Assembly (NCBI RefSeq): GCF_001995215.1
Contig: NZ_MUXN01000017.1
Coordinates: 62,001-126,000 of the forward strand
Direction: 5' to 3'
DNA: 64,000 nucleotides
Origin: Amycolatopsis azurea DSM 43854
GTDB lineage: Bacteria; Actinomycetota; Actinomycetes; Mycobacteriales; Pseudonocardiaceae
Shown here: piece after piece, positions 14,223 through 43,206 of the stretch
Position numbering within the stretch: position 1 is the first letter of the stretch
Layout: each line of letters starts with the position of its first letter
The notes under the pieces: generated by a model
Told to the model about the DNA's origin: nothing
Seen by the model: only the letters and a program-made list of their open reading frames with translations
The model's database searches: none
Position numbers and translations under genes: made by a program

Positions 14223-14921
14223 ATGACCTCCATCGAAGGCGCGGTCGTCCTGGTCACCGGCGGGCAGCGCGGGCTGGGCAGGGCGTTCGTCGCCGAACTG
14301 CTCGAACGCGGTGCCGCCAAGGTCTACGCGACGGCCAGGACGCCGCGCGCGGAGACCGATCCGCGGATCGTGCCGCTCCCGCTCGACGTCACCGACCCGG
14401 AGTCCGTCCGCGCGCTGGCCGCCGAAGCGAGCGACGCGACGATCGTCTTCAACAACGCCGGGGTCCTCGGGCTCGGCTCGCTGCTCGGCGAAGACGTCGA
14501 CGCGCACCGGCCGGTCTTCGAGACGAACGTCTTCGGGGCGCTGCGCGTCGCGCAAGCGTTTGCGGCGGGGCTCAAGGACGGCGGAGCGCTGGTCAACGTC
14601 CACTCCGTCCTGTCGTGGGCGGCTGGCTCGGGGTCCTACGGCGCGTCGAAGGCGGCCTTCTGGTCGCTCACCAACTCGCTCCGCATCGAGTTCGCCGAGC
14701 AGGGCACCCAGGTGGTCGGCGTCCACCTCGGCTACACCGACACGGACATGACCCAGGGGCTCGACATCCCGAAGAACGACCCGCGCGACGTCGCCCGCCA
14801 GGTCGTCGACGGGCTGGAGAAGGGGGAGACCGAAGTGCTCACCGACGACCTCACCCGCCGGGTCAAGGCCGCGCTGTCCGGTCCGGTCGAGCACCTCGGC
14901 ACCAGCCGGATCGCCGGCTAG
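14223..14921 (+). CDS. Short-chain dehydrogenase/reductase
   Basis: 232 residues, classical SDR. It has an LVTGGQRGLG cofactor motif, an NNAG motif (IVFNNAGVLG) and the catalytic pair YGASK (Tyr and Lys in YxxxK). The N-terminal glycine motif lacks an acidic residue favouring NAD, so cofactor choice is open. CAAAGGAGCAAATC gives a strong ribosome binding site before ATG. It is probably repressed by the divergent CGNR regulator. Substrate unknown. Confidence 0.85.
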   Translation: MTSIEGAVVLVTGGQRGLGRAFVAELLERGAAKVYATARTPRAETDPRIVPLPLDVTDPESVRALAAEASDATIVFNNAGVLGLGSLLGEDVDAHRPVFETNVFGALRVAQAFAAGLKDGGALVNVHSVLSWAAGSGSYGASKAAFWSLTNSLRIEFAEQGTQVVGVHLGYTDTDMTQGLDIPKNDPRDVARQVVDGLEKGETEVLTDDLTRRVKAALSGPVEHLGTSRIAG

Positions 14922-14966
14922 AAAACCGTTGGCGGGAGCACTCCGGCACGGGGTAGCTTCGCCGCC

Positions 14967-15005
14967 ATGTGTGCTTCCGCGTTCACCAGGACCCGCCGCG
15001 CCTAG
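14967..15005 (+). CDS. Candidate erm leader peptide MCASAFTRTRRA
   Basis: A 12-codon open frame (ATG 14,967, TAG 15,003-15,005) ends about 100 bases before the proposed erm start. The peptide contains Arg-Thr-Arg-Arg. Known ErmD-type leader peptides carry an Arg/Lys-X-Arg/Lys motif at which macrolide-bound ribosomes stall. The stop codon lies at the edge of a perfect 7-bp stem that has an alternative partner downstream, the classical attenuator layout. Translation of this frame is inferred, not shown. Confidence 0.55.
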   Translation: MCASAFTRTRRA

Positions 15006-15080
15006 CGGCGGATCCCACGCGTCCAGCAAGGAACCGCCGCCCGAGCGAGTCATCGCCGGGCAGGCCTCGTGCTGCCCGGC
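14993..15080 (+). promoter_or_regulatory. Candidate translational/transcriptional attenuator of erm
   Basis: GCGGCGG at 15,005-15,011 can pair with CCGCCGC at 14,993-14,999, inside the leader frame, or with CCGCCGC at 15,034-15,040. These pairings exclude each other. A further perfect 9-bp stem (15,055-15,063 with 15,072-15,080, 8-base loop) lies just before erm. A ribosome stalled on the leader peptide would cover the first strand and free the other pairing. The regulatory outcome is inferred. Confidence 0.55.
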
Positions 15081-15104
15081 TCACCTCGAAGCCGCGGAGA
15101 TCCC

Positions 15105-15839
15105 TTGCGCACACATCGTCCCGGCCGTCACGAACTCGGCCAGAACTTCCTCATCGACCACGACATCATCGAAACCGTCGTCGGGCTTGTCGCCGGAACC
15201 GACGGGCCCATCATCGAATTCGGCACCGGCGACGGCGCGCTCACCCTGCCACTGGAACGGCTCGGCAGGCCACTGACCGGTGTCGAGATCGACGACCGTC
15301 GAGCGCTGAGGCTGGCGGGCCGCGTCCGGACGTCCACGGAGATCGTCGCCGAGGACTACCTGCGGTTCCCCCTGCCGAAGACGCCCTACGTCCTGGTCGG
15401 GAATCTGCCGTTCCACCTGACCACCGCGACACTGCGCCACGTCCTCGCCGCTCCCGGCTGGACCGACGCCGTCCTGCTCATGCAGTGGGAGGTGGCGCGC
15501 CGCCGGGCCGGGGTCGGCGGCGCGACCCTGCTGACCGCGCAGTGGTGGCCGTGGTTCGACTTCCGGCTGGCCCGCCGGGTCCCCGCGGCGGCGTTCAGTC
15601 CCCGGCCCGGCGTCGACGGTGGGCTCCTGACCATGACCCGACGCGAGCGCCCGCTCGTCGACGACGCGGATCGTGAGCGCTACCAGGACTTCGTGCGGCA
15701 GGTGTTCACCCGGCCCGGCAAAGAAGTCGTGCCCAAACGCCTCACCGCACACCAGTGGGCTGAGGCGTTTCGGCTTCGGCGAGGAAATCCGGCTCGCGGG
15801 CGCGGCGCTTCGTCGAACCGAACAGGACCCCGCCGATGA
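15105..15839 (+). CDS. erm: 23S rRNA adenine N6-methyltransferase, Erm family
   Basis: About 244 residues from TTG 15,105 (MRTHRPGRHELGQNFL), with GCGGAGA upstream. An in-frame GTG at 15,069 sits inside a hairpin and is less likely. It has the GQNFL motif (12-16), SAM motif IIEFGTGDGA (about 36-45) and the catalytic NLPF motif at residues 100-103. The LLMQWEVARRRAGVGG and QWWPWFDF stretches are typical of actinobacterial Erm. Erm dimethylates the 23S rRNA adenine in the peptide tunnel, giving resistance to macrolides, lincosamides and streptogramin B. The C-terminal domain looks shortened: KRLTAHQWAEAF comes soon after VRQVFTRPGKE. The last 98 bases overlap the convergent EamA gene. Confidence 0.88.
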   Translation: MRTHRPGRHELGQNFLIDHDIIETVVGLVAGTDGPIIEFGTGDGALTLPLERLGRPLTGVEIDDRRALRLAGRVRTSTEIVAEDYLRFPLPKTPYVLVGNLPFHLTTATLRHVLAAPGWTDAVLLMQWEVARRRAGVGGATLLTAQWWPWFDFRLARRVPAAAFSPRPGVDGGLLTMTRRERPLVDDADRERYQDFVRQVFTRPGKEVVPKRLTAHQWAEAFRLRRGNPARGRGASSNRTGPRR

Positions 15840-16692
15840 CGACGGCCGCGGCGATGATCTCCACCAGCGAGGGGCGCTCGTCGAGGACCAGGAACGCCAT
15901 CGACAGCCCGACCACCGGCACCAGCAGGGAGAACGGCGCGACCACGCCCGCCGGGTTGCGGCGCATCAGCGACGTCCAGATCCCGGAGCCGACGATCGTG
16001 CCGAACAGCACGACGTAGGCGAGCCCGCCGAGGCCGATCAGGCCGGTCGTCGTGCCGAGGGTGCTCAGCGAGCGCCCGATCTCGGCGGGCCCCTCCATCG
16101 CCAGCGACAGCGCGAACATCGGCAGCGGCGGCACCACGGACATCCAGAGGACGAAGTTCAGCGGGTTGTCCGGGGCCGCCTGCCGCGTGCTCAGGTTTCC
16201 GAAGGCCCAGCTCAGCGCGCCGAGCAGGGTCAGGATCACCGGCAGCAGGGCGGCGTTGCCGGCCTGCTGCCAGGCGATCGTCGCCATCCCGGCGACGGCG
16301 AGCAGGATCCCGCCCAGCTGCCGTCCGGACACCCGTTCCCGCAGGAAGACGGCGCCGAGCAGGACGGTGAACGGGGCCGAAGCCTGCAGCACCAGCGACG
16401 CGAGACCGGTCGGCATGCCGGTGTCCATCGCGATGAAGAGGAAGACGAACTGCCCGGTGCCGAAGCCCAGCCCGTAGCCGAGCAGGTGGCGGATCTTCAC
16501 CTTCGGCCACGGTACGAAGAGGATGGTCGGGATCGCGATGATCGCGAAGCGCAGCCCGCCGGCGAAGACGGGCGGGAACTGTCCGAGGGTGGCGTGGATG
16601 GCGAGGAAGTTGCAGCCCCAGAGGACGGCGACGAGCAGGGCGAGCAAACGGTCGCGGGCGGGCATGTCCTTCACTCTGACGTGGATGACCAT
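15742..16692 (-). CDS. EamA/DMT-superfamily transporter
   Basis: 316 residues with ten hydrophobic helices in two EamA repeats (about residues 15-145 and 160-295). Examples are LLVAVLWGCNFLAIHATLG at the first helix and ASAPFTVLLGAVFLRERVSG near helix 4. Such proteins export metabolites or amino acids. It starts at ATG 16,692; ATG 16,665 (MPARD) is an alternative. It is divergent from a LysR gene with a 60-base gap, a usual arrangement for an effector-induced exporter. The 3' end overlaps erm by 98 bases on the opposite strand. Confidence 0.88.
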   Translation of the reverse strand: MVIHVRVKDMPARDRLLALLVAVLWGCNFLAIHATLGQFPPVFAGGLRFAIIAIPTILFVPWPKVKIRHLLGYGLGFGTGQFVFLFIAMDTGMPTGLASLVLQASAPFTVLLGAVFLRERVSGRQLGGILLAVAGMATIAWQQAGNAALLPVILTLLGALSWAFGNLSTRQAAPDNPLNFVLWMSVVPPLPMFALSLAMEGPAEIGRSLSTLGTTTGLIGLGGLAYVVLFGTIVGSGIWTSLMRRNPAGVVAPFSLLVPVVGLSMAFLVLDERPSLVEIIAAAVVIGGVLFGSTKRRAREPDFLAEAETPQPTGVR

Positions 16693-19192: not shown

Positions 19193-21563
<2,371 letters not shown>

Positions 21564-42775: not shown

Positions 42776-43206
42776 TGGCCGACCAGGACGACCGCGCCCA
42801 CGTGGTCGACACCGCCGCCGTGTTCCTGCGCGCGGCCGCGGCCGACTCGCTGGAGGCCGCCGACGTCGTGGTGCGCGAGTACCTCGGCGAGGGCGACCCG
42901 ATCGACCGCTACGGGAAGTTGTGGGCGCTGATCTCCATCGGCCTGGTGGTGGTCGGCGAGACGTTGCGCGCGCTGATGAACCCGCCCGGCCCGGTCACGC
43001 TCGAGGCCGAGGTCGCGCCGGATCCGGTCGAGATCACCGCCATGCAGGCGATCACCGCGCAGGTGAACCTCGACCCCGAGGCCGCGCAGGACGTCGTCAC
43101 CGGCCACGTGGCCGCCGAGGGGCTCGACGGGCTGGTCGCGCTGCTGCCCGTGCTGCTCGACGTCTACCGCCTCAACGCGATTTGGGGAACGGAGACCGCG
43201 TCATGA
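42775..43206 (+). CDS. Hypothetical phage protein
   Basis: 143 residues, acidic, helical, with one moderately hydrophobic stretch (KLWALISIGLVVVGETLRAL, about residues 48-67). Start ATG 42,775; the GTG at 42,772 is an alternative. Not recognised. Confidence 0.55.
   Translation: MADQDDRAHVVDTAAVFLRAAAADSLEAADVVVREYLGEGDPIDRYGKLWALISIGLVVVGETLRALMNPPGPVTLEAEVAPDPVEITAMQAITAQVNLDPEAAQDVVTGHVAAEGLDGLVALLPVLLDVYRLNAIWGTETAS

Follow-up and report, generated by a model that had tools for sequence, protein, structure and literature searches.

The window, the whole 64-kb stretch of Amycolatopsis azurea DNA analysed here, contains an erm gene separated from a short-chain dehydrogenase gene (14223-14921) by a compact control region (Table 1). 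In 5' to 3' order, this region comprises an A-tract with a -35 box, a -10 box, the ATG of a short leader ORF, GCGGCGG, GCAAGG, CCGCCGC, a 9-bp hairpin and GCGGAG, followed by the TTG start codon of erm (15105). The erm product scored 238.6 bits against the broad NCBIfam Erm model (cut-off 212), in agreement with the first-pass annotation of the gene; the best exception models were Erm(46), Erm(38) and Erm(55), each below its own cut-off, and the closest named relatives are from Amycolatopsis. The leader frame, the GCGGCGG stretch with its two CCGCCGC partners and the 9-bp hairpin before erm all lie where that annotation had placed them. A comparison of 14800-15300 with Rfam gave a single match with E ≤1 (0.78), under the gathering score and outside the element.

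Table 1. Features of the erm control region of A. azurea, in window coordinates.
Feature	Coordinates	Strand	Basis
Putative WhiB7 site and -35 box, AAAA + CCG + TTGGCG	14922..14934	+	Sequence, locus comparison
-10 box, TAGCTT	14954..14959	+	Sequence; predicted transcription start 14967
Leader ORF, MCASAFTRTRRA-stop, 12 codons, ATG 14967, TAG 15003-15005	14967..15005	+	Sequence, conservation
5' lock strand, AUGUGUGC, pairs with 15109-15116 (erm codons 2-4)	14967..14974	+	Fold
Strand 1, CCGCCGC, inside Arg codons	14993..14999	+	Sequence, alignment, duplex test, fold
Strand 2, GCGGCGG, common to the 1:2 and 2:3 pairings	15005..15011	+	Conservation, alignment
Anti-start strand, GCAAGG, pairs with 15103-15108 over the erm TTG	15026..15031	+	Fold, conservation
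Strand 3, CCGCCGC; partner is strand 2, or its 3' part 15037-15040 with the Shine-Dalgarno region	15034..15040	+	Alignment, fold
Central 9-bp hairpin, GCCGGGCAG / CTGCCCGGC, 15055-15063 with 15072-15080	15055..15080	+	Fold, alignment
Strand 4, GCGGAG, including the Shine-Dalgarno GGAG	15094..15099	+	Alignment, fold
erm, 244 aa, Erm family of 23S rRNA methyltransferases, start TTG	15105..15839	+	Profile match

Exactly 7 nt (CGCCGCC) separate the -10 box from the leader ATG, and they include no Shine-Dalgarno sequence. The spacing from the -10 box places the predicted transcription start at the first base of the ATG (14967) and not downstream of it. Among the 154 Arg-X-Arg (RxR) leader calls from the loci described below, the -10 box and the start codon were separated by 7 nt in 118, 8 nt in 28 and 6 nt in 8. 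Because the start codon is mostly 7 nt after the -10 box, the mRNA is predicted to be leaderless, and it probably begins with the first base of the ATG at which reading of the leader starts. A generic sigma-70 promoter scan of 14600-15200 found 0 sites. A rule for leaderless short ORFs found one candidate on each strand of the 64-kb window, both with R-x-R; the plus-strand one is the erm leader, and the minus-strand one, at 21025-21066, or 42935-42976 in minus-strand numbering, may be chance.

The promoter carries sequences of the WhiB7 type. In the WhiB7 sites of M. abscessus, 3 bp separate an AT-rich sequence from the -35 box that follows it, and TANNNT lies further downstream (PMC10727445); such an AT-rich sequence is present before the -35 box at the A. 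azurea locus (AAAA-CCG-TTGGCG). TAGCTT starts 25 nt after the start of TTGGCG, with a 19-nt gap, compared with published distances of 13-14 or 23-24 nt that were possibly counted otherwise (PMC10727445). A strict WhiB7 promoter pattern had 0 matches in the window, the gap that it allows being too short for the erm leader promoter. In 91 representative loci, positions -31 to -29 of the -10 box were mostly A (64-71%) and a GGTTG-like stretch came next; a rule combining the A-tract and the -35 box was satisfied in only 78 of 149 loci, compared with 87 of 2980 shuffled segments. The A. azurea genome also encodes a WhiB7-like protein (L180) with EPWGVWGG and RGRPRK; EPW and RGRP are marks of WhiB7 (PMC10727445). 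Its gene is preceded by GAAAATAAGTTG, by short reading frames and by what looks to the eye like a hairpin followed by a T run, a layout that resembles the one published for whiB7. These sequences suggest that the erm promoter may be under WhiB7 control. The first-pass annotation had proposed a self-contained drug-sensing switch; that it is self-contained is doubtful, given the WhiB7-type look of the promoter and the presence of a WhiB7-like gene in the genome.

Related erm loci were collected for comparison. At E ≤1e-30, Erm homologues occurred in 35 of 80 genus genomes, 130 of 390 family genomes, 52 of 298 genomes of the order sample and 45 of 394 of the class sample, these samples being overlapping. 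A second collection, searched with a looser limit, contributed 22 contigs, not every one of them close, and 41 plasmid records also carried homologues. The family search provided 104 fetched places out of 131 erm places, and many matches of ~35-43% identity from the order search were left out of the sample, so that the distant erm clade is under-sampled. Of the fetched loci, 198 were tested and 196 were placed (some at the same place twice; L205 and L213 were not placeable), collapsing to 169 distinct upstream regions, with rows L002, L003, L052, L053, L054 and L174-L183 left out before the counts. A usable erm start was present in 149 of the 153 RxR loci, from which the 91 representatives, which are not phylogenetically independent, were drawn. 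At L054 (Amycolatopsis regifaucium GY080) only Erm residues 213-238 were matched, downstream of the start of a dehydrogenase-like gene, and the gene appears to have been lost there but for a remnant of its end.

A rule blind to the peptide (-10 box TANNNT, 6-8 nt, ATG or GTG, 8-40 codons, end before erm) detected a short ORF in 157 of the 169 distinct erm upstream regions, and in 153 of them it contained Arg-X-Arg. The same rule yielded a short ORF in 5/169 reverse complements (RxR in 3/169) and in 16/845 dinucleotide shuffles (RxR in 6/845). Random window stretches scored in 9/2000, a figure probably explained by the two candidates that the window contains. Since RxR occurred in 6 of the 16 shuffle ORFs and 3 of the 5 reverse-complement ORFs, part of the signal in this GC-rich DNA is the leaderless ORF itself. 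By frame, RxR was found in 154 (frame 0), 14 (+1) and 45 (+2) of 158 calls, and by erm sequence cluster the RxR leader was present in at least one member of 67/76 clusters and in all members of 61/76. A leader with Arg-X-Arg before erm is not chance, and the arrangement is not a single-locus curiosity: it is widespread among the actinobacterial erm loci sampled. The first-pass annotation had made its switch depend on conservation of the leader frame and the paired strands at homologous erm loci, and this conservation was found.

Detailed inspection of the 91 representatives showed that the first Arg is encoded by CGG (36), AGG (26), CGC (22) or CGT (7), and that X is L (40), I (16), P (13), D (8), T (4) or others. 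Use of four codons for the first Arg while X varies argues that the Arg residue is kept, and not the RNA alone. The motif ends exactly two codons before the stop in 73/91 representatives. Examples come from Saccharothrix (L043, MCCAFTALTRLRRA), Actinokineospora (L040, MGIQAIRLRRA), Murinocardiopsis (L041, MAMYGCTMNAGSIAVMRPRRV) and Enteractinococcus (L044, MCCLGIASMRLRRH), and from the plasmid genes erm(X) of Corynebacterium (L187, MLISGTAFLRLRSNR) and erm(36) of Micrococcus (L190, MGSPSIAVTRFRRF). Erm(38)-like genes, below the Erm(38) model cut-off, have the leaders MSAATFFIRIRIA, MTASMRLRTA and MSVTYIRLRIT (L129-L131), and an Erm(55) gene above its cut-off has MGITSVAVIRIRRF (L137), with the same frame in a Mycobacteroides plasmid locus (L188). 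Many leaders start with MCA, MCC or MG, with Cys or aromatic residues ahead of the motif.

Sixteen regions had no strict call. Five of them (L077, L160, L164, L165 and L201) contain an RxR leader-like frame at another spacing or start, and an accepted RxR leader is absent from the other eleven (L042, L106, L116, L128, L154, L185, L199, L200, L203, L207 and L212). Two of these are natural exceptions with a leader in the usual place and no Arg-X-Arg, namely MCAIAVSKPWGE in Actinokineospora auranticolor (L042) and MGNTNIAVTEFRRF at the Rhodococcus plasmid erm(46) (L185).

A purely transcriptional control, with WhiB7 alone inducing the promoter and drug stalling on the translated leader being incidental, would draw on the A-tract before the -35 box at the A. 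azurea locus and in 78/149 loci, on the EPW and RGRP motifs of the genome's WhiB7-like protein, on the published WhiB7 control of erm41 (PMC10727445) and on the treatment of erm(37) as an exception to leader control (PMC4128351). We consider it unlikely, since it leaves unexplained the Arg-X-Arg frame conserved in 153/169 regions, as well as the alternative strands and the sequestered erm start described next.

The RNA from 14967 to 15125 was predicted to fold with -77.3 kcal/mol (z -3.85), and 0/200 shuffles were as stable. Its helices join 14967-14974/15109-15116, 14993-14999/15005-15011, 15026-15031/15103-15108, 15037-15040/15094-15097 and 15055-15063/15072-15080, with three short ones in addition. 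Two of these helices, of 8 and 6 bp, lock the gene in the ground state: the leader's own start (AUGUGUGC) holds erm codons 2-4, and GCAAGG, paired with CCUUGC, holds the erm start codon. When the leader strand was removed, GCGGCGG paired with 15034-15039, in the second CCGCCGC copy, as the alternative pairing put forward in the first-pass annotation foresaw, and GCAAGG was drawn off the erm start. The pieces lacking the leader were not unusual when folded alone (15006-15125, z -1.31; 15015-15125, z -0.78). Mutually exclusive pairings, one of which hides the erm start, are characteristic of an erm translational attenuator and are present here as computed structures.

Duplex energies compared with shuffled partners gave a mean z of -1.54 for strands 1:2 (42/91 loci in the best 5%), -1.15 for 2:3 (26/88) and -0.48 for 3:4 (11/88), while two control pairings gave 0.03 (7/88) and 0.14 (4/91). 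The 1:2 and 2:3 pairings are clearly above shuffles, and 3:4 weakly so. The duplex between the leader start and the erm start had an energy of -7.05 across the 91 loci, compared with -6.05 (sd 0.20) for permuted partners. In an alignment of 51 loci picked from 69 for alignability, the 2:3 helix was paired in 88.5% of cells, and the whole ON structure in 86.0% compared with 34-52% for slid partners; for the OFF structure the values were 82.2% and 35-50%.

Covariation of the paired strands is weak to modest. Two-sided changes were few, with G-C to A-U at alignment columns 29/73 in three rows and single cases at 33/69 and 35/67. The covariation score was reached by 9/500 shuffles for OFF and 46/500 for ON, and pairs with two-sided changes were no more numerous than in shuffles (reached by 305/500 for OFF and 183/500 for ON), with as many for slid partners. 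Strands 2 and 3 are too invariant for a strong covariation test. In 16 same-genus loci, variable positions numbered 0/7 in strand 2, 0/6 in GCAAGG and 1/7 in strand 3, compared with 11/14 in the loop between strands 2 and 3 and 15/19 in the promoter spacer; within the leader, variation was found at 3/18 positions of the RTRRA-stop stretch and 7/21 of the first seven codons. It is invariance, and not covariation, that carries the case, as expected when one strand must serve two partners.

Conservation of the strands might have another cause, for instance binding of a protein or a coding requirement for the Arg codons, with no switch being formed. CCGCC repeats arise readily from GC-rich Arg codons, and both the weak covariation and a modelled stalled state not clearly more open than shuffles (see below) fit such a reading. 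This explanation is extremely improbable in our view, since the non-coding strands 2 and 3 complement each other, pairing is found in 86% of cells compared with 34-52% for slid partners, and the control pairings are at chance.

By analogy, R8-T9-R10 of the leader is the predicted stall site, with T9 in the P site and R10 in the A site. Stalling was modelled by blocking the footprint of a ribosome with X of the motif in the P site, in the 91 representatives and 10 shuffles of each. With the footprint in place, opening the erm Shine-Dalgarno and start cost on average 2.6 kcal/mol less, compared with 1.3 kcal/mol less in shuffles, and the gain exceeded the locus's own shuffle mean in 64/91 representatives (Wilcoxon P 3e-6), the other 27/91 showing no such excess. 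At the A. azurea locus, the opening energy fell from 12.6 to 8.9, and 0/10 shuffles had as large a change. The free state was tighter than in shuffles (10.9 vs 9.9, P 1e-4), and it is from this tighter free state that the gain comes; the stalled state was not clearly more open than in shuffles (8.3 vs 8.6, P 0.06). With the ribosome at the start codon or at the last codon, the opening energies were 9.6 and 9.7, respectively.

In A. azurea, a ribosome with T9 in the P site is expected to have a footprint ending at 15005 or 15006. With either end the 2:3 stem formed, and an end at 15007 returned the OFF fold. In the ON fold of this locus the Shine-Dalgarno sequence is still weakly paired with erm codons. 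The modelled switch is plausible but finely balanced, with a marginal ON state.

The fold model did not single out the RTR codon at the A. azurea locus: ribosome positions from six codons before to four after it gave 8.1-9.5 kcal/mol, each helping to about the same extent. The mean opening energy of the representatives was lowest from two codons before X to X (8.2, 8.1 and 8.3) and was 8.9 one codon later, and the lowest-energy position per locus was scattered, falling at the first Arg in 19/74 and at -6 and -4 in 11 each. Among leaders ending in RDRRA, the modelled RxR stall was predicted to close the erm start at five loci (L031, L167, L169, L171 and L189), to leave it unchanged at two (L100 and L103) and to open it at L168.

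The frame, motif, spacing, strand complementarity, conservation and modelled opening found by computation are consistent with a leaderless translational attenuator, in which a WhiB7-type promoter would drive a leader whose Arg-X-Arg motif stalls drug-bound ribosomes and frees erm. We regard this as the probable mechanism. Transcription would start from the WhiB7-type promoter at the A of the leader ATG, and ribosomes would begin on the 5'-terminal AUG with no Shine-Dalgarno sequence. In the absence of drug, the 12 codons would be read through and strands 1:2 would form; strand 3 and GCAAGG would hold the erm Shine-Dalgarno and TTG, and the leader start would close on erm codons 2-4, keeping erm off. 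A ribosome bound by a macrolide or ketolide would stall at Arg8-Thr9-Arg10 with T9 in the P site, as judged from ErmDL. The footprint of the stalled ribosome would cover strand 1 and the 5' lock, strand 2 would pair with strand 3, and the GCAAGG:CCUUGC lock over the erm start would be broken, allowing erm to be translated.

Two other roles for a ribosome on the leader can be weighed against this mechanism. The stalled ribosome might keep a terminator from forming before erm; ribosome-controlled terminators have been described for whiB7 itself (PMC10727445) and alternative hairpins are present before erm, but a consensus scan of 14600-15200 found 0 terminator-like sites and strand 4 carries a Shine-Dalgarno sequence instead, which makes transcription attenuation very improbable. 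A ribosome at the 5' end might instead shield the leaderless erm transcript from decay, with the hairpins mainly shaping decay. The title of PMC5118997 claims that erm expression is linked to mRNA stability independently of ribosome stalling, and a leaderless 5' end would be directly covered by a ribosome; such stabilisation, however, needs neither the 3:4 nor the start-codon pairings, which exceed the control (3:4 weakly), and we consider it quite improbable.

The attenuator proposed here shares elements with known systems. A short leader with Arg-X-Arg before erm is also found in ErmDL (PMC8298421), the A. azurea motif being RTR. In ErmDL the +X+ motif is critical for telithromycin stalling and less so for erythromycin, and the arrested ribosome has X (Leu7) in its P site and Arg in its A site (PMC8298421). 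The first-pass annotation regarded the leader as unlike the classical ErmC/ErmD peptides, which is half right: the N-terminus differs from that of ErmDL, by eye and with the ErmDL MTHSM taken from primer names (PMC8298421), whereas the Arg-X-Arg core is the +X+ motif critical in ErmDL. The A. azurea type also differs from ErmDL in its motif two codons before the stop, its predicted leaderless start, its GC-rich four-strand structure and its WhiB7-type-looking promoter. The leader may work like ErmDL; we do not class it as a homologue, since the two leaders share no more than the RxR core.

As in the ErmC attenuator, where hairpins are rearranged by a leader ribosome that the drug has stalled and the ribosome binding site becomes free (PMC13410324), the erm start would be released by refolding, but the A. 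azurea leader has neither an IFVI-type stall motif (ErmCL MGIFSIFVIS, PMC13410324) nor a Shine-Dalgarno sequence before it. The Corynebacterium plasmid erm(X) locus (L187) is similar in having MLISGTAFLRLRSNR 7 nt after the -10 box, and a leader peptide with possible translational attenuation has been noted before erm(X) (PMC3350403); it differs in being a distant relative (~56% identity) with no A-tract by the rule. In mycobacteria, short cysteine-codon-rich ORFs head leaderless transcripts and attenuation has been proposed for them (PMC4633059), but they precede other genes and are not drug sensors. The whiB7 uORF is an actinobacterial antibiotic-sensing attenuator (PMC10727445) that controls a terminator, whereas before erm the translation start is hidden instead. 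No conservation pattern common to all uORFs emerged from a survey, published in 2024, of the regions upstream of erm genes (PMC11264731). Among the literature matches listed (titles and abstract starts, with subscription literature mostly outside), none described a leaderless or conserved Arg-X-Arg leader for an actinobacterial erm. The A. azurea type can be regarded as attenuation of the ErmC/ErmD kind, differing in its predicted leaderless start, the RxR fixed just before the stop, the WhiB7-type promoter and its actinobacterial breadth.

A wider proposal, to which we give slightly less than even credence, is that most actinobacterial erm genes of this clade are under two-key control, by a WhiB7-type promoter and a leaderless 5'-terminal Arg-X-Arg sensor; through the pairing of leader start and erm start, each ribosome starting on the leader would unlock part of the gene, and only a drug-stalled one would open it fully. 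If so, erm genes at present regarded as WhiB7-controlled, for example the Erm(38) relatives of the same order and the Mycobacteroides plasmid Erm(55), would also be translationally attenuated. If the leader is truly leaderless, the drug sensor would be read by Shine-Dalgarno-independent initiation, and cross-talk between WhiB7 activation and leader attenuation could help to explain the induction of macrolide resistance in actinobacteria. The occurrence of one pattern in 153/169 regions of the sampled clade makes a general rule for inducible resistance testable, plasmid erm genes included.

Two further observations concern the 3' part of the A. azurea erm gene. The end of erm (15742-15839) overlaps tail to tail with a minus-strand ORF (15742-16692), transporter-like by eye. 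The C-terminal domain of Erm (15705-15839) is ~29 residues shorter in A. azurea, L033 and L034 than in L039, a shortfall that is smaller in comparison with L036-L038 and L129; twelve genus loci align across all 244 Erm residues.
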